NCBI GenBank assembly: GCA_011525785.1
Contig: WYBT01000012.1
Coordinates: 124,001 to 188,000, forward strand
Source: Planctomycetaceae bacterium
GTDB lineage: Bacteria > Planctomycetota > UBA1135 > GCA-002686595
Direction of reading: 5' to 3'
Length of the DNA: 64,000 bases
Translations under genes and position numbers: made by a program
Notes under the pieces: generated by a model
The model's database searches: none
What the model was told of the DNA's origin: nothing
What the model saw: the letters and a program-made list of their open reading frames with translations, nothing else
Shown: positions 51,391 to 61,829 of the stretch, piece by piece
Position numbering within the stretch: the stretch's first letter is position 1
Layout of the letters: each line of letters opens with the position of its first letter

Positions 51391-52404
51391 ATGGATGTTC
51401 CCCAACCGCTGATCTGGATCGCCAAGATCGTCGTGATCTTCGGCGGCCTCGTCGGCACAGCGGCGCTGATGTCGCTGGCCGAGCGCAAGGTCTCGGCCTG
51501 GATGCAGTACCGCATCGGCCCCAACCGCGTCGGGCCGTTCGGCCTGCTGCAACCCCTGGCCGACGGCATCAAGTTCATCTTCAAGGAAGAGCTGATCCCG
51601 GCCGGCGCGAACAAGTTCATGTTCCGCCTCGCGCCCGCGCTCTCGGCGGCGCCCGCGATGCTCACCATGGCCGTGATCCCGATCGGCGGGACCGCCGTGA
51701 TCGCGGGTCGCGAGATCCCGCTCTCGATCGCCGACGTCGACATCGGCGTGCTGTTCCTGCTGGCCTTCTCGGGCCTTTCGATCTACGGCGTGATCCTGGG
51801 CGGCTGGGCTTCGAACTCGAAGTACTCGCTGCTCGGCGGTCTGCGCGCCTCGGCGCAGATGATCAGCTACGAGTTGACGCTGATCCTCACGATCCTGGCG
51901 GTGGTGGCGCTCGAGGGCACGCTCAACCTGCGCGCGATCAGTGAGAACCAGGCCAGCATCGGCCAGTGGAACATCTGGACGCAGCCGCTGGCCTTCGTGC
52001 TCTTCACGATCACGATGTTTGCGGAGACCAATCGGCACCCGTTCGACTTCGCCGAGTGCGAGCCCGAGTTGGTCGGCGGCTTCCACACCGAGTACAGCGC
52101 CATGCGCTTCGCCCTGTACTTCCTGGGCGAGTACTGCGCCATGACGGTGCTCTCGTGCCTCAACGCGACCTTGTTCCTGGGCGGGCCGTCGGTCCCGTTC
52201 TGGCCCGAGGCGCCGTGGTTCATCGGGGTCGCAGCCTTCTGCCTCAAAGCCGGCTTCTTCCTGTTCCTGTTCCTGTGGGTTCGCTGGTCGCTGCCGCGCA
52301 TGCGCTTCGACCAACTGATGCGCCTGGGCTGGAAGGTGTTCCTGCCGCTGGCGCTCGCCAACCTGCTCGTGACCGGCGCCTTCATCTCCTTCGGAGCGCA
52401 CTGA
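51391..52404 (+). CDS. nuoH: NADH-quinone oxidoreductase subunit H
   Basis: The product is 337 aa with about eight transmembrane helices. AERKVSAWMQYRIGPNRVGP and FAETNRHPFDFAECEPELVG are the quinone-channel motifs of the family. It joins the peripheral and membrane arms. It is the only nuo gene not coupled to its upstream neighbour. Confidence 0.97.
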   Translation: MDVPQPLIWIAKIVVIFGGLVGTAALMSLAERKVSAWMQYRIGPNRVGPFGLLQPLADGIKFIFKEELIPAGANKFMFRLAPALSAAPAMLTMAVIPIGGTAVIAGREIPLSIADVDIGVLFLLAFSGLSIYGVILGGWASNSKYSLLGGLRASAQMISYELTLILTILAVVALEGTLNLRAISENQASIGQWNIWTQPLAFVLFTITMFAETNRHPFDFAECEPELVGGFHTEYSAMRFALYFLGEYCAMTVLSCLNATLFLGGPSVPFWPEAPWFIGVAAFCLKAGFFLFLFLWVRWSLPRMRFDQLMRLGWKVFLPLALANLLVTGAFISFGAH

Positions 52405-52406
52405 TC

Positions 52407-52918
52407 ATGGTCATCGTCCAGCGCAAAGAACTGACGTTCGCCGAGCGGCTGTACCTGCCGGAGATCTTCCGTGGGTTGTCGATCACGTTCTCGAAGTTCT
52501 TCGAGAAGCCGATCACGCGCCAGTACCCCGAAGAACCGCTGCCCACCGACGAAGTCACGCGCGGTCAGCCGCGGCTGGTGGTCAAGGACGACGGCAACAT
52601 CGCCTGTGTCTCGTGCGGCATGTGCGAGATCGCCTGCCCGGCCTACGCCATCACGATCGACGGCGGCGAGACCGACCGACAGATCGAGCGCGAACCCAAG
52701 CGCTTCGAGATCGACATGCTGCGCTGCATCCTGTGCGGCTTCTGCGAAGAGGCCTGCCCGAAGGACGCGATCTTCATGTCGAACGAGCTCGAGCTGGCCG
52801 ACACGACGCGCCGCGGGCTGGTCTACGACCTCGAAAAGCTCAAGCGCCCCAAGTCGGCGCTGCAGCCGCGCATCGACTACGTCTACCGCATCAACAAGCG
52901 TTGGCGGAGCAAGCAGCC

Positions 52919-52922
<4 letters not shown>
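52407..52922 (+). CDS. nuoI: NADH-quinone oxidoreductase subunit I
   Basis: The product is 171 aa. Two 4Fe-4S motifs, CVSCGMCEIACP and CILCGFCEEACP, bind clusters N6a and N6b. The start lies 2 nt after the nuoH stop and the end overlaps nuoJ by 4 nt (GTGA). Confidence 0.97.
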
Positions 52923-53445
<523 letters not shown>

Positions 53446-53449
<4 letters not shown>

Positions 53450-53766
53450 ACGTTCCCAGCGAACACCTGTTCTTCCTGTCGGCCGGGCTCTTCGCTCTGG
53501 GAGTGCTCGGCTTCCTCGTGCGGCGCAACGTGATCGTGGCGCTGATGTGCGTCGAGCTGATGCTGAACGCCGCGAATCTGGCCTTCCTCGCCGCCAGCCG
53601 CAGCCACTCCAGAGCCGACGCACTCGATCTCCAAGGGCCCGTGTTCTCGATCTTCGTGATCACCGTCGCGGCGGCGGAGGCCGCGGTCGGTCTGGCCCTG
53701 GTGATTGCGCTCTATCGGCTCAAGCAATCGGTCGAGACGGATTCGGCCAGCGAGATGAAGGGCTAG
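53446..53766 (+). CDS. nuoK: NADH-quinone oxidoreductase subunit K
   Basis: The product is 106 aa with three helices. ALMCVELMLNAANLAFLA holds the first conserved membrane glutamate, and VAAAEAAVGLALVIALYRL the second. Both are needed for proton transfer in the family. The GTG start overlaps the nuoJ stop. Confidence 0.96.
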
Positions 53767-53769
53767 TCG

Positions 53770-55785
53770 ATGCAAGACCCGCTTTCGCAAGCCTGGTTGT
53801 GGTGGATCCCCCTGCTGCCGCTGATCGGCAGCGCGCTGTGCGGCGCCCTGCACCTGGCCACCTTGCGTGCGCGCAAGAGCGATCCGAACGCCAAGGGGCC
53901 GTCGGCGCTCGCGCCTGTGGTGGCCTGCGCTGCGATGGCCGGCGCACTGGCCTTCGCGCTGCGCGGCTTCATGGACCTGCGAGCGTTGGCGCCGTCTGCG
54001 CGCACGCTGCTCTCGACGGCCTGGGAGTGGATCACGATCGGCGACCCGGCGCGCCCGTGGTTCGACGTCGACGTCGCGCTCGTGCTCGACCCGCTTTCGA
54101 GCACGCTGACGCTGGTCATCACCGGCGTGGGCTTGCTGATCCACATCTACGCCGCCGGGTACATGAAGGGTGACGCGGGCTACGCCAAGTTCTTCGCGTA
54201 CCTCAACCTGTTCGTGTTCGCGATGCTGATCCTGGTCCTGTCGAGCTCGCTGCTGGGCGTGTTCGTGGGCTGGGAAGGCGTGGGCCTGTGCTCGTACCTG
54301 CTGATCGGCTTTTGGTACGAGAAGGGCTGGCCGGCCGAGGCCGCGCAGAAGGCCTTCGTGACCAACCGCGTCGGCGACGCGTGCTTCCTGATCGGCAGCT
54401 TCCTGCTGCTGCGCCTGTTCGGCACGCTCGACATGGCGGACATCGTCCTGCGCATGAAGGCCGACTTCCGCCTCGAGACGATCGACGCGACCACGCAGCT
54501 CAACCTCACGCTGGCCGCGCTGTTCCTGTTCGGCGGCTGCTGCGGCAAGTCGGCGCAACTGCCGCTGTTCACCTGGCTGCCCGACGCCATGGCGGGTCCG
54601 ACGCCGGTCTCGGCGCTGATCCACGCGGCCACCATGGTGACCTCAGGCATCTACCTGATCGTGCGCCTCAATCCGCTGTTCGCCTCGAGCCCGGCGGTCA
54701 TGACCTTGATCAGCGCCGTCGGCGTGACCACGGCCCTCATCGGCGGTTCGACCGCGCTCGTCCAGCGCGACATCAAGAAGGTGCTGGCCTACTCGACCGT
54801 CAGCCAGCTCGGGTACATGTTCCTCGGTCTGGGCACGGGCGCGTTCGCCGCCGCAGTGTTCCACCTCGTCACGCACGCCTTCTTCAAGGCGCTCTTGTTC
54901 CTCGGCGCCGGGTCGGTGATCCACGGCATGCACGAGGAACAGGACATGCACAAGATGGGCGGCCTGCGCAAGCACATGCCGCAGACCTTCGCGACCTTCC
55001 TGGCGGGCGCGGCCGCGCTCTCGGGCCTGCCGCTGATGAGCGGCTTCTTCTCGAAGGACGAGATCCTCGCCCACACCTTCAATTCGGGCGGCGTGTACTA
55101 CGCGTTCTGGATCGTCGGCGTTCTGACCGCCGCGATGACGGCGTACTACACCTGGCGCATGGTGGCGCTGACCTTCTTCGGACCCGAGCGCTTCGACCAC
55201 CACCACGTGCACCCGCACGAGTCGCCGGCGCTCATGACCGTTCCGCTGATGGTGCTGGCGCTGCTCTCGGTGCTGGGCGGCGTGCTCGGCCTGCCGCCGG
55301 TGTTCCACGTCGCGCACGTGCTCGACGGCTGGCTCGCGCCGGTGGTCGAGCCGGGCAAGGCGATCCTCGCCATGCACCATCCGCACGAGCACCTCTCCCA
55401 CGCGGTCGAGTGGCTGCTCCTGGGTCTGGGCGCCGCGGTCGCGTTGGCCTTCGCGCACACCGGCTTCTACGCCTACACGCGCGGGCCCGAGCGCGACCTC
55501 GCGATCGACCGCGGCGCACCGGGCGTGGCCGGCTTCCTCGGCGAGGCCTGGACCATCGACGGCGCGTACTCGCGCCTGGTGGTGATGCCGCTGAGGCTGT
55601 GCGCCTTCACGGTGCGCTTCGTGGTCGATCAGCTCGTGATCGACGGCCTCGTCAACGGCTCGGCGACGCTCGCCAAGGGCGTAGCTGCGCGCGTGCGCGG
55701 CATGGCCTCGGGCCAGCTCGAGTCGTACGCGCTGTGGATGGGCGCAGGCGCGGCGCTGATCTCCCTGTGGTGGATGTGGAGCTGA
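53770..55785 (+). CDS. nuoL: NADH-quinone oxidoreductase subunit L
   Basis: The product is 671 aa, an antiporter-like subunit with about 14-16 helices. WEGVGLCSYLLIGFWYEK carries the key glutamate, and GKSAQLPLFTWLPDAMAGPT the key lysine. ATMVTSGIYLIVRLNPLF and the histidine-rich loop FDHHHVHPHESPA follow. The C-terminal amphipathic arm expected of NuoL is present in the last 120 residues. Confidence 0.96.
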   Translation: MQDPLSQAWLWWIPLLPLIGSALCGALHLATLRARKSDPNAKGPSALAPVVACAAMAGALAFALRGFMDLRALAPSARTLLSTAWEWITIGDPARPWFDVDVALVLDPLSSTLTLVITGVGLLIHIYAAGYMKGDAGYAKFFAYLNLFVFAMLILVLSSSLLGVFVGWEGVGLCSYLLIGFWYEKGWPAEAAQKAFVTNRVGDACFLIGSFLLLRLFGTLDMADIVLRMKADFRLETIDATTQLNLTLAALFLFGGCCGKSAQLPLFTWLPDAMAGPTPVSALIHAATMVTSGIYLIVRLNPLFASSPAVMTLISAVGVTTALIGGSTALVQRDIKKVLAYSTVSQLGYMFLGLGTGAFAAAVFHLVTHAFFKALLFLGAGSVIHGMHEEQDMHKMGGLRKHMPQTFATFLAGAAALSGLPLMSGFFSKDEILAHTFNSGGVYYAFWIVGVLTAAMTAYYTWRMVALTFFGPERFDHHHVHPHESPALMTVPLMVLALLSVLGGVLGLPPVFHVAHVLDGWLAPVVEPGKAILAMHHPHEHLSHAVEWLLLGLGAAVALAFAHTGFYAYTRGPERDLAIDRGAPGVAGFLGEAWTIDGAYSRLVVMPLRLCAFTVRFVVDQLVIDGLVNGSATLAKGVAARVRGMASGQLESYALWMGAGAALISLWWMWS

Positions 55786-55798
55786 GCGAAGCCTGGCC

Positions 55799-57364
55799 AT
55801 GCACTACGACCTGTTGCTCTTGACCTTCCTGCCGCTCGCTGCGGCCTTCGCGATCGCCTTCACACCCAAGGGCGCCGAAGCGCTGCAGCGCTACCTCGCG
55901 CTCGGCGCGACGCTCGTGGTGGCCGTGCTCGGCGTGCGCCTGTTCATCGGCTTCGGCGCCGAAGGCACGCCGGTCGAACGCTACCTGTTCGACGCGCCGT
56001 GGTTCGCGCTGCCCAGCTCCTATGGCGCGCCGACGCAGGTGCGCTTCAAGCTCGGGCTCGACGGCGTGTCGCTCCTGATGGTCACGCTCACGGCCGTGCT
56101 GATGCCGATCGTGATCCTCTCGACCTGGGGACACGTCCACAAGCGCGTCAAGGAGTTCATGGTGTGGATGCTCGTCATGCAGACGGGCATGCTCGGGACG
56201 TTCCTCGCGCTGGACCTGGTGCTGTTCTACTTCTTCTGGGAGATCAGCCTCATCCCGCTGTACTTCCTGATCGGCATCTGGGGCGGCGAGCGTCGGCTGT
56301 ACGCGACGATCAAGTTCTTCCTCTACACGCTCGCGGGCTCGCTGGTGATGATGATCGCCATCATCTCGATCCTGTGGACGCGCGGGACGAGCGACGTCTT
56401 CGAGCTGATCAACGTGCTCTGCCGCGCGCCGCTGGAAGAGCAACTGTGGCTCTTCGCCGCGTTCGCGCTGGCCTTCGGCATCAAGGTGCCGCTGCTGCCG
56501 TTCCACACCTGGCTGCCCGACGCGCACACCGAGGCGCCGACCTCGGGTTCGGTGGTGCTCGCGGGCGTGCTGCTGAAGATGGGCACGTACGGACTGGTGC
56601 GCTTCTGCATCCACATGCTGCCGGGCGCCGCGATCGCCGCTGCGCCGGTGATGATGGCACTGGGCGCGATCGGGATCCTCTACGGCGCGCTCCTCGCCTG
56701 GGCTCAGGACGACCTCAAGCGCTTGATCGCCTGCTCCTCGGTCAGCCACCTGGGCTACGTGGTGCTGGGCCTGTTCGCGCTCACCCCGGCCGGCATCAAC
56801 GGCGGGATGCTGCAGATGGTCAACCACGGCATCTCGACCGGCCTGCTCTTCCTGCTGGTCGGGATGATCTACGAGCGCCGCCACTCGCGCGCGCTCGACG
56901 CCTTCGGCGGAGTCGCGGTGGCCATGCCGATCTTCGCGCTGTTCTGGGTCATCACCACCCTCTCGAGCGTGGGCCTGCCTGGGCTCAACGGCTTCGTGGG
57001 CGAGTACCTGATCCTGTACGGCTCGTTCCAGGCCTCGCCGCTGTGGTCGATCGTCGGCCTGAGCGGCGTGATCTTCGGCGCGATCTACATGCTCATGGCG
57101 ACGCGGCGCATGTTGTTCGGCGCGCTCGACAAGCCCGAGAACCGCGAGCTGGGCGACCTGGGCGCGCGCGAAGTCGGGCTGCTCTTGCCGCTGGTGGTGC
57201 TCGTGGTGTGGCTCGGCGTGAGTCCGAACACCTTCCTGTCCAAGACCCAACCGGACCTCGAGCAGATCAACGTGCGCCTGGCCGAGGCGCGGCGCGCGCT
57301 GCTCGCCAGCGCCGACTCCACGACCCATCCCTCGGCTGAACCGCTCCAGGAGCAGTCGCGATGA
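55799..57364 (+). CDS. nuoM: NADH-quinone oxidoreductase subunit M
   Basis: The product is 521 aa with about 14 helices. YFFWEISLIPLYFLIGIWGG has the essential glutamate, and GIKVPLLPFHTWLPDAHTEA the lysine and the loop typical of NuoM. The start lies 13 nt after nuoL; the stop overlaps nuoN (ATGA). Confidence 0.97.
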   Translation: MHYDLLLLTFLPLAAAFAIAFTPKGAEALQRYLALGATLVVAVLGVRLFIGFGAEGTPVERYLFDAPWFALPSSYGAPTQVRFKLGLDGVSLLMVTLTAVLMPIVILSTWGHVHKRVKEFMVWMLVMQTGMLGTFLALDLVLFYFFWEISLIPLYFLIGIWGGERRLYATIKFFLYTLAGSLVMMIAIISILWTRGTSDVFELINVLCRAPLEEQLWLFAAFALAFGIKVPLLPFHTWLPDAHTEAPTSGSVVLAGVLLKMGTYGLVRFCIHMLPGAAIAAAPVMMALGAIGILYGALLAWAQDDLKRLIACSSVSHLGYVVLGLFALTPAGINGGMLQMVNHGISTGLLFLLVGMIYERRHSRALDAFGGVAVAMPIFALFWVITTLSSVGLPGLNGFVGEYLILYGSFQASPLWSIVGLSGVIFGAIYMLMATRRMLFGALDKPENRELGDLGAREVGLLLPLVVLVVWLGVSPNTFLSKTQPDLEQINVRLAEARRALLASADSTTHPSAEPLQEQSR

Positions 57365-58824
57365 AGCTCTCCGTGCTGCACTCCTTGTTCGACGCTGCGG
57401 CGCTGAGCGCGCTCGCCCCGCTGATGGCGCTGGCCATCGGCGCGTTGCTTGTCCTGCTCGCCGGCTTGACCCCGCTGTCCAAGGCGGCCCGCGGACTGCT
57501 GGTCGCGGCGTCGCTCGTGTTCGCGGGAGTCCTGAACGCCCGGATCCTGCTCGCGGAGCAGGTCCCCGGGGTCGTGCTCGACGGCGTGTTCGTCGCCGAT
57601 CGCGCGACGGCCATGTGGGGCCTGATCTTCATCGCCGGCGTCGCCGTGGCGTGGCTCTTCAGCCGCAACTACTACGACGAGGACAGCTCGCACCAGAACG
57701 AGCACGACGTCCTGCTGCTCGCCACCGCCGTGGGCATGTCGATGATGGCCGGCGCGCGCGACCTGATCGTGTTCTTCATCGGCCTGGAGTTGCTCTCGAT
57801 CCCGCTCTACGCGCTGGCGGCGTTCCGCCGCAATCGCGCCAAGTCGGTCGAGGCGGGCCTCAAGTACTTCCTGCTCGGCGCCTTCGCCGCGGGCTTTTTC
57901 CTCTACGGCGCCGCGCTGGTGTACGCAGCGAGCGGCACGCTGTCCCTCGATGTCTTCGCCGACCCCGCGCAACGCGCGAAGGTGCTCGAGAGCCCCATGG
58001 CGCTCGTGGGCGTGGCGATGCTCGCGGCCAGCGTTTTCTTCAAGGTGAGCGTGTTCCCCTTCCACGTCTGGGTCCCCGACGTGTACGAGGGCAGCCCCAC
58101 GCCCGTCACGGGCCTGATGGCGACCGGTACGAAGGCCGCGGCGTTCGCGTTCCTGCTCAACGCGCTGCTCGCGCTGCCGACGAGTTCTGCGACCAGCGTC
58201 GCTCTGATCGCCCTGATCACCATGGCGGTCGGCAACCTCGGCGCGCTGCTGCAGCAGGACGTCAAGCGCATGCTGGCTTACTCGGGCATCGCCCACGCCG
58301 GCGTCGTGCTGCTGGCGATCGCAGGCGCAGTCGGCGGCGACCCGCAGCCGCACGGCGCGCTGCAAGCCGCTCTGTTCTACATGGCGGCCTACGTGGCCAC
58401 TGCGGGCGGCGCGTTCGGCGTGCTCGCGCTGCTCGAGTCCGACGGCGAGCGCATGACGACGCTCGACGGCCTGCGCGGCCTGGGCCAGCGCCGCCCCTAC
58501 CTCGCGGCGGCGCTCACCGTGTTCATGCTCTCGCTCGGCGGCATCCCCGCCACCGGCGGGTTCCTGGGCAAGTACCTGGTGTTCTCGGTCGCCGTGCGCG
58601 CCGAGATGATCCCGGCCGCGATCGTGGGCGTGCTGCTGAGCGTGATCGCACTGGGCTACTACCTGCGCGTGATCATCGCCATGTGGATGCAGGCCCCGAA
58701 CGAGGACTCGCCGCTCGCCAGCACCAAGCCCATCGCCTTCAGCGCGCGCTTGGCGTCGACCGCCTGCGTGGCGCTGGTGCTGCTGATGGGCCTGTTGCCG
58801 CGCTGGTTCCTCGAGCACATGTGA
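57361..58824 (+). CDS. nuoN: NADH-quinone oxidoreductase subunit N
   Basis: The product is 487 aa, the third antiporter-like subunit. FFIGLELLSIPLYALAAFRR and FKVSVFPFHVWVPDVYEGSP, then TGLMATGTKAAAF, are NuoN signatures. It is the last gene of the operon. No T-tailed terminator is obvious in the 55 bp before the next feature. Confidence 0.96.
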   Translation: MKLSVLHSLFDAAALSALAPLMALAIGALLVLLAGLTPLSKAARGLLVAASLVFAGVLNARILLAEQVPGVVLDGVFVADRATAMWGLIFIAGVAVAWLFSRNYYDEDSSHQNEHDVLLLATAVGMSMMAGARDLIVFFIGLELLSIPLYALAAFRRNRAKSVEAGLKYFLLGAFAAGFFLYGAALVYAASGTLSLDVFADPAQRAKVLESPMALVGVAMLAASVFFKVSVFPFHVWVPDVYEGSPTPVTGLMATGTKAAAFAFLLNALLALPTSSATSVALIALITMAVGNLGALLQQDVKRMLAYSGIAHAGVVLLAIAGAVGGDPQPHGALQAALFYMAAYVATAGGAFGVLALLESDGERMTTLDGLRGLGQRRPYLAAALTVFMLSLGGIPATGGFLGKYLVFSVAVRAEMIPAAIVGVLLSVIALGYYLRVIIAMWMQAPNEDSPLASTKPIAFSARLASTACVALVLLMGLLPRWFLEHM

Positions 58825-58879
58825 TCGCCGCCCGCGGAACTCGCGGAGCCGCGCTCAGCGCGCCATCACGGCACGACGG

Positions 58880-59224
58880 TCAGCTCCAGACCATTCGAAA
58901 GTTGGTCGACTTCGACGCCGGCGGGTCGCGATACCAGCCTTGCGCGTAGAGCTTGTCGCCGACGCTGAACGGCGAGCCCAGCGCTGAGGGGCTGGCGGTG
59001 ACGAAAGCGTTCCAATCGAGTGTGAGCACTCCATCGCACGCGCCCGTGGTCCCGCCGGATCCCTCAGCACCCGTGCGCTGCGTCGGCGCTTTGACGCACA
59101 AGAAGCTGCTCCCCGATCCCCACGCGACACTCGCTGGGCCGGCGCCCACGTAGAGGACCAGCCCCTGCTCCTGCCCTTCGAGGTTGGCGACGCTCAGCAC
59201 ACACGGGTTCACCCAGTCGGCGCA
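58880..59224 (-). pseudogene. 5'-truncated remnant of a subtilase-type C-terminal domain
   Basis: About 114 codons align with the C-terminal domain of the four large subtilases. QGLVLYVGAG corresponds to NGLLFFGFA, FLCVKAPTQRT to TLCVASPTIRT, and VGDKLYAQGWYRDPP to PGEVVYGQYWMRDPQ. No signal peptide, protease or Ig-like part is attached. Upstream, the open frame enters the antisense of the adjacent sigma gene, where similarity stops. I read this as the surviving 3' end of a deleted surface-protein gene; no sensible start codon lies in the homologous part. Confidence 0.75.
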
Positions 59225-59753: not shown

Positions 59754-60038
59754 CTACAGCCGATCGAACTCGATCGCGTAGCCGGTCGTGTCGGAGCTCA
59801 TGCGCTCGACGCGCACCAGCTTGCCCGTGTAGTCGCGCGACGAGGCGCTGTCGCGGATGCGCACGCGCACGCTCAGCGGGTCGGTCGAGAAGAAGAACAC
59901 GCCCGCCGTGGAGATGTTCTCGGCCTGCCCCCGCAAGGTGGCCGCGTCGAGCTGGATCTCGAGTTGGACGTCGCTGTCGCGGCGCGTGGCCCGGCGACGC
60001 TCGCCGACGCTCGTGTTCGGTTCTTCGTTTTGGCTCAT
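59754..60038 (-). CDS. PilZ-domain protein
   Basis: The product is 94 aa, a single PilZ domain. ERRRATRRDSDV carries the R-x-x-x-R element and GQAENISTAGVFFF the (D/N)-x-S-x-x-G element that bind cyclic di-GMP, so binding is likely. No output domain is attached, so it would act through a partner. The ATG at 60038 gives a short polar N-terminus (MSQNEEPNTSVGERRR). Confidence 0.85.
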   Translation of the reverse strand: MSQNEEPNTSVGERRRATRRDSDVQLEIQLDAATLRGQAENISTAGVFFFSTDPLSVRVRIRDSASSRDYTGKLVRVERMSSDTTGYAIEFDRL

Positions 60039-60270
60039 TGAGGGGCGCGGAGTTCGAGGGGTGCCGTTCCGCCGCCGCAGACGCCGCAGCGATCGGGCGC
60101 CGGGCGCGGAGTTCGAAGGCAGTTGTCGGACCGGCGCCCTGTGGGCTTGACTGGCTTCGAGCGCAGTCGGAGTTCCGCCCCAGACCTGGGAGCGCGCACG
60201 GCGGAAGGCCGCGGAGGAGAGCTACCATCTTCCGCGCTTCACGCCCCCCCAACCCACCGACGAGCAGGTC

Positions 60271-60675
60271 ATGGTCAACCGCCGCGCACACCCTCACTTC
60301 GACGACAAGTCGACCCTCGACTGGAACACCCGCTGGAGCGAGGCGCTGGCCGCCGCGCAGTGCGAGAACAAGTTGATCTTCATCGAGTTCGGCCGCGAGC
60401 AGTGAGGCCAGTGCCGCGCCCTCGTGCAGGGCGTAGTTCCCCACCCCGAAATCGCGCCGCTGCTGCAAAAGGGCTTCGTGGCCCTGGCCAGTGACTGCGA
60501 CGAGCCCGAGGAGCAAGTCGAGCTCCTCGCCGGCCATCTCGAAGACGCTTACATGCTCCCGTTCGTGATCTTCGCCGGACCTGACGGCCGCTTCCTCGAC
60601 GGAATGTCCGGCGCCGTCAATCCCCTCAGCTTCAAGCGCCGCCTCGAGAAGTTGAGCGCCGGCCCCAGCGCCTGA
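60271..60675 (+). CDS. Probable selenoprotein: thioredoxin-like protein with U-x-x-C motif (in-frame TGA at 60403)
   Basis: Read through the TGA at 60403-60405 as selenocysteine, the product is 134 aa. Before the TGA it reads LIFIEFGREQ, after it GQCRALVQGVVPHPEIAPLL. The TGA codon (position 45) therefore sits three residues before C48, exactly where a thioredoxin-fold protein has the first cysteine of CxxC. Coding similarity to the fold continues on both sides in the same frame, with no shift: a Trp/Leu-rich helix before, and the cis-proline strand MLPFVIFAGPDGRFLDGMSG after. A 6-bp hairpin with a CGTGC loop lies 11 nt downstream of the TGA and fits a bacterial SECIS. The gene lies 11 nt upstream of the aminotransferase gene. 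A redox role is inferred. The alternative is a nonsense mutation. Confidence 0.8.
60417..60433 (+). promoter_or_regulatory. Candidate bacterial SECIS hairpin
   Basis: CGCCCT (60417-60422) pairs perfectly with AGGGCG (60428-60433), enclosing the loop CGTGC; a G.T pair can extend the base. The loop GU is 19-20 nt beyond the TGA at 60403-60405. The position, stem length, small loop and a G within its first two bases match the general bacterial SECIS pattern recognised by SelB. Confidence 0.7.
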
Positions 60676-60686
60676 TCGTCCGCCCC

Positions 60687-61829
60687 ATGGCCCAACAACC
60701 CTTCACTCCGCCCGAGCGCCTGCTCCTGGGGCCCGGCCCCTCCCCCGTCGCGCCTTCGGTGCTGCGCGCGCTCTCGCTGCCCACCGTCGGACACCTCGAC
60801 CCCGAACTGTTCGCAGCCATGGACCAGATCCGCGCCAACCTGCGCGCGATCTTCGGCACGCAGAACGCGGCGACGCTGGCCGTGTCCGGCACCGGCACCG
60901 CGGGCATGGAAGCGGTGCTGTGCAACCTGATCGAGCCGGGCGACGGCGTGCTGGTCGCAACCCACGGCTACTTCGGCGCGCGCATCGCGCAGATCGCCGA
61001 GCGCTGCGGAGCGCAGGTCACGCGCGTCGACGCGCCCTGGGGCGCCGCCAGCGACCCGCAGGCAGCGCGCGCGGCCGCGCACGGCAAGCGCATCCGGCTG
61101 GTGGCCGTCGTGCACGCCGAAACCTCGACGGGCGTGCGCCAGGAGCTCGCCCCCTGGAACGCGCTGGCGCGCGAACTCGACGCGCTGCTGTGCGTCGACG
61201 CGGTGACCTCGCTGGGCTGCCTGCCGATCGAAGTCGACGCCCACGGCATCGACGGGATCTGGTCCTGCACGCAGAAGGGGCTGTCGTCGACGCCTGGCCT
61301 CGCGCCGGTGAGCTTCTCGCCGCGCGCAGTCGAACGCGTGCGCGCCCGCCGCTCGGCGGTGCAGAGCTTCTACCTCGACCTGGGGCTGTTGCTCGAGTTC
61401 TGGGACGCGCCGCACGGCTACCACCACACCATTTCGAGCAACCTGCTCTACGGCCTGCACGAGGCGACGCGACTGGTGCTCGAGGAGGGGCTCAGCGCGC
61501 GCTTCCAACGCCACGAGCGCGTCAGCCGCGCGTTCCTTGCGCTCGCGCGCGAGTTGGGGCTCAGCCCGTTCGTGCCCGACGAGTTGCGCCTGCCGCAGCT
61601 CACCACCCTGCGCGTTCCCGAGGGCGTCGACGATCTCGCGCTGCGCAAGCGCTTGTTGCTCGAACACGGCATCGAGATCGGCGGCGGCCTGGGCGCGCTG
61701 AAGGGCAAGCTGTGGCGCGTGGGCCTGATGGGGCACGGCGCCGACGAGCGCAACGCGCAGCGTTGTGCAGCGGCCCTCGGCGCCTTGCTCGGGACGCGCA
61801 GCGAGGCCCACTCCGTTCGCGGCCAGTGA
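60687..61829 (+). CDS. Class V aminotransferase, alanine-glyoxylate / serine-pyruvate type
   Basis: The product is 380 aa of standard family length. PERLLLGPGPSPVAPSVLRA is the N-terminal substrate-binding motif. GTGTAGMEAVLCNLI binds PLP phosphate, LLCVDAVTSLG holds the PLP aspartate, and WSCTQKGLSSTPGLA has the Schiff-base lysine K197. GGLGALKGKLWRVGLMGHGA holds the carboxylate-binding arginine. It transfers amino groups between alanine or serine and glyoxylate. It lies between the selenoprotein gene (11 nt) and the next gene (1-nt overlap). Confidence 0.9.
   Translation: MAQQPFTPPERLLLGPGPSPVAPSVLRALSLPTVGHLDPELFAAMDQIRANLRAIFGTQNAATLAVSGTGTAGMEAVLCNLIEPGDGVLVATHGYFGARIAQIAERCGAQVTRVDAPWGAASDPQAARAAAHGKRIRLVAVVHAETSTGVRQELAPWNALARELDALLCVDAVTSLGCLPIEVDAHGIDGIWSCTQKGLSSTPGLAPVSFSPRAVERVRARRSAVQSFYLDLGLLLEFWDAPHGYHHTISSNLLYGLHEATRLVLEEGLSARFQRHERVSRAFLALARELGLSPFVPDELRLPQLTTLRVPEGVDDLALRKRLLLEHGIEIGGGLGALKGKLWRVGLMGHGADERNAQRCAAALGALLGTRSEAHSVRGQ

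Follow-up and report, generated by a model that had tools for sequence, protein, structure and literature searches.

The window analyzed here is a 64,000-nucleotide stretch (G000:C4:124001-188000) taken from a draft genome that measures 6.8 Mb and is split into 63 contigs. It contains a single thioredoxin-like frame coding for 134 residues plus a stop, in which the sole internal stop is a TGA at codon 45 (Table 1). This TGA is followed by GGC CAG TGC (Gly-Gln-Cys) and, read as selenocysteine (Sec, U), the 21st amino acid, it would give a UGQC motif in the active-site context GREQUGQC. The frame's own stop is also a TGA, at 60673-60675. A preliminary description of the same DNA had proposed one continuous frame broken only by the internal TGA, and both the frame and its domain match bear this out.

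Table 1. Features at and around the thioredoxin-like locus (window positions).
Feature	Position	Strand	Basis
PilZ-domain gene, upstream, opposite strand	59754..60038	-	profile match
Read-through thioredoxin-like gene, predicted selenoprotein	60271..60675	+	frame, Pfam match, orthologues
TGA within the frame (codon 45), predicted to encode selenocysteine	60403..60405	+	orthologue codons at 80 loci
Cys48 codon, second active-site position of UGQC	60412..60414	+	C48 unchanged across 47 aligned proteins
Predicted SECIS hairpin, 7-bp stem 60416-60422 with 60428-60434, loop CGUGC 60423-60427	60416..60434	+	fold
Conserved hairpin core, 5 bp, 60418-60422 with 60428-60432	60418..60432	+	80-locus comparison, covariation
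83-aa ORF from GTG, the piece kept by annotation	60424..60675	+	ORF list; database protein P0055
Pro97 codon, likely cis-proline	60559..60561	+	P97 unchanged across 47 aligned proteins
Class-V aminotransferase gene, 11 nt downstream, possibly same operon	60687..61829	+	profile match

The Pfam domain Thioredoxin_7 (PF13899) matches the read-through protein over residues 17-104 with 45.5 bits against a cut-off of 27. DUF255/Thioredox_DsbH (PF03190) also matches, at 31.9 bits (cut-off 27), with profile positions 17-82 of 163 aligned. A structure model of the protein has a pLDDT of 92.9 and its matches are thioredoxin folds; residue 45 and Cys48 lie at the start of a predicted helix (46-55). The invariant Pro97 is presumably the cis-proline that faces the active site of thioredoxin folds.

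The aminotransferase gene is found downstream in 12 and the PilZ gene upstream in 14 of the 80 orthologous loci described below, the window included in both counts and many loci having only about 1.5 kb of flank. We considered these neighbors as a clue to function and rejected them, as no function follows from them. Further upstream, at window positions 52000-59000, lie genes that resemble NADH-quinone oxidoreductase (nuo) subunits, judging from the ORF translations alone.

Gene callers cut this kind of protein at the TGA. The database protein matching the gene (P0055) is an 83-aa product holding only the part after the TGA, and the expectation that automatic annotation would truncate the gene is thus borne out. 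Our protein database search returned 174 proteins; among the 120 listed, 87 have 126-208 aa and 33 are pieces of 76-88 aa spanning only 56-62 % of the query. All four pieces with sequence inspected start at residue 52. The homologues among these 120 are either full length with Cys45 or pieces beginning after codon 45. When the window protein is aligned with 46 of the 87 full-length relatives, every sequence shows Cys at residues 45 and 48. The TGA of the window was entered as Cys in this alignment and any U entry would also be displayed as C; codon 45 is therefore better judged from the DNA loci.

We compiled 80 distinct orthologous loci by tblastn (E <=1e-12, residue 45 covered, repeated contexts removed) from overlapping sets of 61 relatives, 154 class genomes and a 392-genome phylum sample, plus named genome contigs, with 22 further stretches fetched. 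Left out were L010 (same place as L037), loci repeating the 120-nt context of another, and matches with E >1e-12, the latter including the presumed paralogues L062, L063, L064 (all TGC) and L065 (TGA), among others. L065, found in a genome of the same order (G043), is a thioredoxin paralogue with a TGA at the first active-site position (HFGAPW-U-GWC). The orthologue L038, from the same-genus genome G001, has a 120-nt context identical to that of L023, a Planctomycetota record. Matches at E 1e-20 or better occur in 59 of the 154 class genomes and 37 of the 392 phylum genomes. Some match at E 0.001, mostly to paralogues, is present in 59 of the 61 relatives, and 25 of them have a strong orthologue (12 TGA and 13 TGC). 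Thirteen of the 14 named-contig loci belong to Planctomycetota, planctomycete or Planctomycetia records, and one to a record named 'bacterium'. Together with the context shared by L038 and L023, this makes it likely that the host is a planctomycete.

Codon 45 is TGA at 47 loci, TGC at 29 and TGT at 4, with no other codon found. The TGA is therefore common to the window gene and 46 related genes, while 33 of the 80 loci carry a Cys codon at the same position. Examining homologues for residue 45 had been suggested as a check, and a Cys codon or TGA was found in 80 of 80 loci, none having an unrelated residue. With Gly-Gln-Cys after the TGA and Cys at codon 45 in orthologues, the TGA occupies the place of the first Cys of a CxxC motif, as first described.

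One alternative is that translation really ends at this TGA, or that the TGA is an error of sequencing, in which case the locus would be either a broken thioredoxin gene or a pair of short genes. TGA is indeed the commonest stop of the family (57 of 80 frames) and the 63-contig assembly is a draft; however, the TGA recurs at the same codon in 46 other distinct loci, the position holds only TGA, TGC or TGT anywhere, and the TGA is accompanied by a hairpin. Furthermore, TGA loci show protein-level constraint on the codons past the TGA, with differences of 0.263, 0.195 and 0.448 at codon positions 1, 2 and 3 (25 TGA loci); codon-position differences before and after the TGA point to conserved coding sequence on both sides. 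We regard a broken gene as extremely improbable.

Downstream of the TGA, the window sequence can form a 7-bp hairpin that begins 10 nt past the TGA and contains one G-U pair. The preliminary description had reported 6 bp from 11 nt, which corresponds to the Watson-Crick part of this stem; the hairpin stands and its extent is revised. The 5-bp core, with its 5-nt loop, begins 12 nt past codon 45. Published rules for bacterial SECIS elements call for a stem of 4-16 bp, a loop of 3-9 nt with a G in the first two places and a spacing of 16-37 nt (PMC13188914). The stem-loop after this TGA (7 bp; loop CGTGC, with G and U as its second and third bases; 17 nt between UGA and loop) satisfies these rules, which are themselves unselective: scanning the window with the stem, loop-G and spacing rules, the energy rule not being applied, we found that 898 of 1158 TGA triplets on both strands satisfy them, 576 with at least 5 bp. 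The fold stability of the single window sequence is ordinary (z-score -0.82; equalled or exceeded by 41 of 200 shuffles). No SECIS family of Rfam matches positions 60200-60700, where the sole match is CcsR1 at 16 bits against a gathering score of 65.3. Because of this high background (41/200 shuffles; 898/1158 TGAs), we rejected the single-sequence fold and the published rules as proof. The likeness to bacterial SECIS elements that had been pointed out holds for stem, loop and spacing and is strengthened by covariation, but an argument from the one sequence is insufficient.

Across loci, the hairpin is coupled to the codon. Of the 47 TGA loci, 46 have all five core pairs, against none of the 33 Cys loci (Fisher p about 1e-21, kinship disregarded), the single exception being L060, a TGA locus with the outer pair broken. 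Among the 44 distinct TGA rows, 99.5 % of cells pair compared to 74.7 % when shuffled, and 51 cells are changed on both sides in a compensatory manner compared to 13.3. Their covariation score is 0.640, against 0.180 for shuffled rows and at most 0.150 with the partner slid by 1-3 columns. Two of the five measures are not above the shuffles, namely pairs with a double change (160/500) and further pair types (271/500). The 33 Cys rows are near shuffled values, with 56.4 % of cells pairing (53.1 % shuffled) and a covariation score of 0.113 (0.091 shuffled); they are slightly above on some measures (27, 12 and 43 of 500 shuffles) and one slid version scores higher (0.227).

It could be argued that the hairpin carries no recoding signal and simply results from the codons used in a conserved, GC-rich region. 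The stem lies within conserved codons and hairpins of such size follow most TGAs of the window. Every one of the 47 TGA loci has the loop G-U, which belongs to a Val codon, but so do 24 of the 33 Cys loci, and its conservation is thus no separate evidence. Codon choice would have to account, however, for the absence of the full set of five pairs from every Cys locus and for strong covariation being restricted to TGA loci. The TGC loci L023, L024 and L027 encode the same CRALVQG peptide as L037 and yet break the stem. We therefore give the codon-choice explanation hardly any credence. The hairpin is not beyond chance in the single sequence and clearly is across the 80 orthologous loci compared here. 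The lesson for method is that single-sequence rules are unselective in a GC-rich window, whereas the coupling of stem and codon splits the two groups almost perfectly.

The genome carries the genes for selenocysteine insertion that the preliminary description had expected of the host: selA (486 bits), selB (342.8 bits with the two pieces of its frame taken together), selD (315.4 bits) and selC, the tRNA-Sec (72.5 bits), all above cut-offs. ARAGORN reports this tRNA as SeC with anticodon TCA. Of 61 genomes, 59 contain selA, 58 contain selB and 59 have a tRNA-Sec (58 above cut-off). The 12 relatives with a TGA orthologue all have selA and selB and 11 have tRNA-Sec, which was not found in the draft genome G036; all three are present in 10 of the 13 relatives with a TGC orthologue. 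As all relatives are drafts or of limited completeness, single absences mean little. Conversely, sel genes occur in nearly all relatives and their presence adds little; we rejected co-occurrence as proof because, being near-universal among the 61 genomes, it merely fails to refute Sec insertion.

Two further in-frame TGAs were observed in this genome. The selD gene (locus L020, G000:C19:330824-331768, forward strand) has one, in the context DCAGUAGK, which we take to be its catalytic position, and selD is thus itself a predicted selenoprotein. SelD is listed with a UxxK motif in the 2026 review (PMC13188914). At locus L129 (G000:C33:144380-144649, reverse strand), an in-frame TGA opens a CxxC-like motif (UVNC) in a longer thioredoxin-like frame, with 525 codons before the TGA and 92 after, making it a second candidate UxxC selenoprotein of the genome.

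Alternatively, UGA45 may be read as Cys or Trp through an altered code or a suppressor tRNA. The frame would be open under such a code, and at 33 of 80 loci a Cys codon takes the place of the TGA. Against this, TGA terminates the window frame and 57 of the 80 orthologous frames, so TGA in general still works as a stop; no locus has Trp at codon 45; and the TGA-coupled hairpin together with a full Sec machinery points to Sec. We rejected a changed genetic code on the basis of frame ends, which are TGA in 57, TAG in 18 and TAA in 3 of the 80 frames, none being reached in 2. An apparent second in-frame TGA in G096 proved to be the gene's own stop. A reading of UGA45 as Cys or Trp is, in our estimation, very improbable.

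The frame, the TGA and the hairpin are confirmed as real, and the interpretation as a selenoprotein is supported. The sequence-based checks suggested beforehand all spoke in its favor, and no outcome named as refuting it was encountered. Codon exchange, a covarying TGA-linked hairpin and the sel genes agree with the U-x-x-C selenoprotein originally claimed, and we consider it highly likely, from sequence comparison, that the locus encodes a 134-residue thioredoxin-fold selenoprotein in which UGA45 is decoded as Sec via the SECIS hairpin 10 nt further on. We infer that, when the ribosome reaches UGA45, SelB carrying Sec-tRNA-Sec would bind the hairpin and deliver Sec. Sec45, placed with Cys48 at the start of the predicted helix, would make the nucleophilic attack, and Cys48 would serve as the resolving residue; with such a pair the protein would reduce disulfides or related oxidized substrates, probably in the cytoplasm.

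Thioredoxin is itself among the known proteins that resemble this one. Trp is usual in the active site of thioredoxins, and GREQUGQC lacks it; the window protein scores 12.1 bits with the thioredoxin profile PF00085, below the cut-off of 23.5. A Sec-containing thioredoxin, likewise with UxxC in a thioredoxin fold, is listed as experimentally verified (PMC13188914). The thiol:disulfide interchange protein UxxC family (PF13098) is also thioredoxin-like with Sec first, and appears in the 2022 and 2026 lists (PMC9312934, PMC13188914) and, as 'Trx-like 2' (cd02953), in the 2008 ocean survey (PMC2398784). With PF13098 the window protein scores 20.7 bits, below the cut-off of 27, a separation by profile score, and the two may overlap; PF13098 is precomputed for most full-length relatives among the matches listed. 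The Trx7/PDZ (seleno)protein NF041199 shares a Thioredoxin_7-type domain and is the best NCBIfam model (21.3 bits, cut-off 300), but only positions 2-57 of its 390-position profile match, and its Sec motif is listed as CxxU as opposed to UxxC in the window protein (PMC13188914). Of the DUF255/Thioredox_DsbH structures 7tkv and 3ira (PF03190), 7tkv is a 642-residue multi-domain chain, compared to a lone 134-residue domain with an active-site TGA here.

Neither the window protein nor any of six relatives scores above the cut-off of an NCBIfam model. TsoB (NF045694) scores 19.6 bits against 805 and DsbD (NF001419) 10.3 bits against 330 for the window protein, and DsbH (NF043050, cut-off 190) is listed only for the relative P0067, at 11.9 bits. 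Across the 47 aligned members, the commonest sub-threshold models are selenoprotein or DsbD-type families. By profile score the protein belongs to Thioredoxin_7 and falls outside NF041199, PF13098 and PF00085. In the portions of the surveys available, UxxC thioredoxin-like families are included in both the 2026 table of 119 families (PMC13188914) and the 2008 table of 51 (PMC2398784), with no Thioredoxin_7 UxxC row found in the former and none of the latter's UxxC thioredoxin-like families placed under Thioredoxin_7; in the 2022 list, Thioredoxin_7 appears with the motif CxxU (PMC9312934). The family is not named in the accessible text of the open-access papers PMC13188914, PMC9312934, PMC4807772 and PMC2398784, the planctomycete candidates of PMC4807772 being placed in its supplement. 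The gene would join a known kind, thioredoxin-like UxxC selenoproteins, and it may have been lumped with 'thiol:disulfide interchange protein'.

In a tree of 80 proteins, the Sec/Cys label needs 13 changes by parsimony, compared to about 26 for shuffled labels, and 4 of them are forced by well-supported branches; the tree was made by a quick method from few columns and has many open forks. The well-supported branches provide four independent Sec/Cys pairs, and for most pairings stem and codon go together in each of the four (sign test, median p 0.125, four pairs being too few). This pattern indicates that Sec and Cys are exchanged repeatedly in the family. Distant orthologues with TGA are also found (L107, L108, L109, L110, L119, L120, L094, L096 and L098). 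In L109 and L119 the frame has a hydrophobic segment at the N-terminus and is greatly extended at the C-terminus, so the family seems to include an exported form too.

We hypothesize, with somewhat better than even confidence, that these genes form an undescribed Planctomycetota selenoprotein family whose members are either short and cytoplasmic or longer and exported. Within it, Sec and Cys would have replaced each other on many occasions, the stem being made and unmade with the codon. If Sec insertion holds, the family contributes a UxxC selenoprotein of thioredoxin-like type, represented by 47 distinct TGA loci and equipped with a covarying SECIS of its own. If the wider hypothesis is true, the family would constitute a natural series showing selenoproteins arising and decaying, and its close Sec/Cys pairs, one of them within a genus (G000 with TGA, G001 with TGC), would offer a direct test of the benefit of selenium in the same protein.
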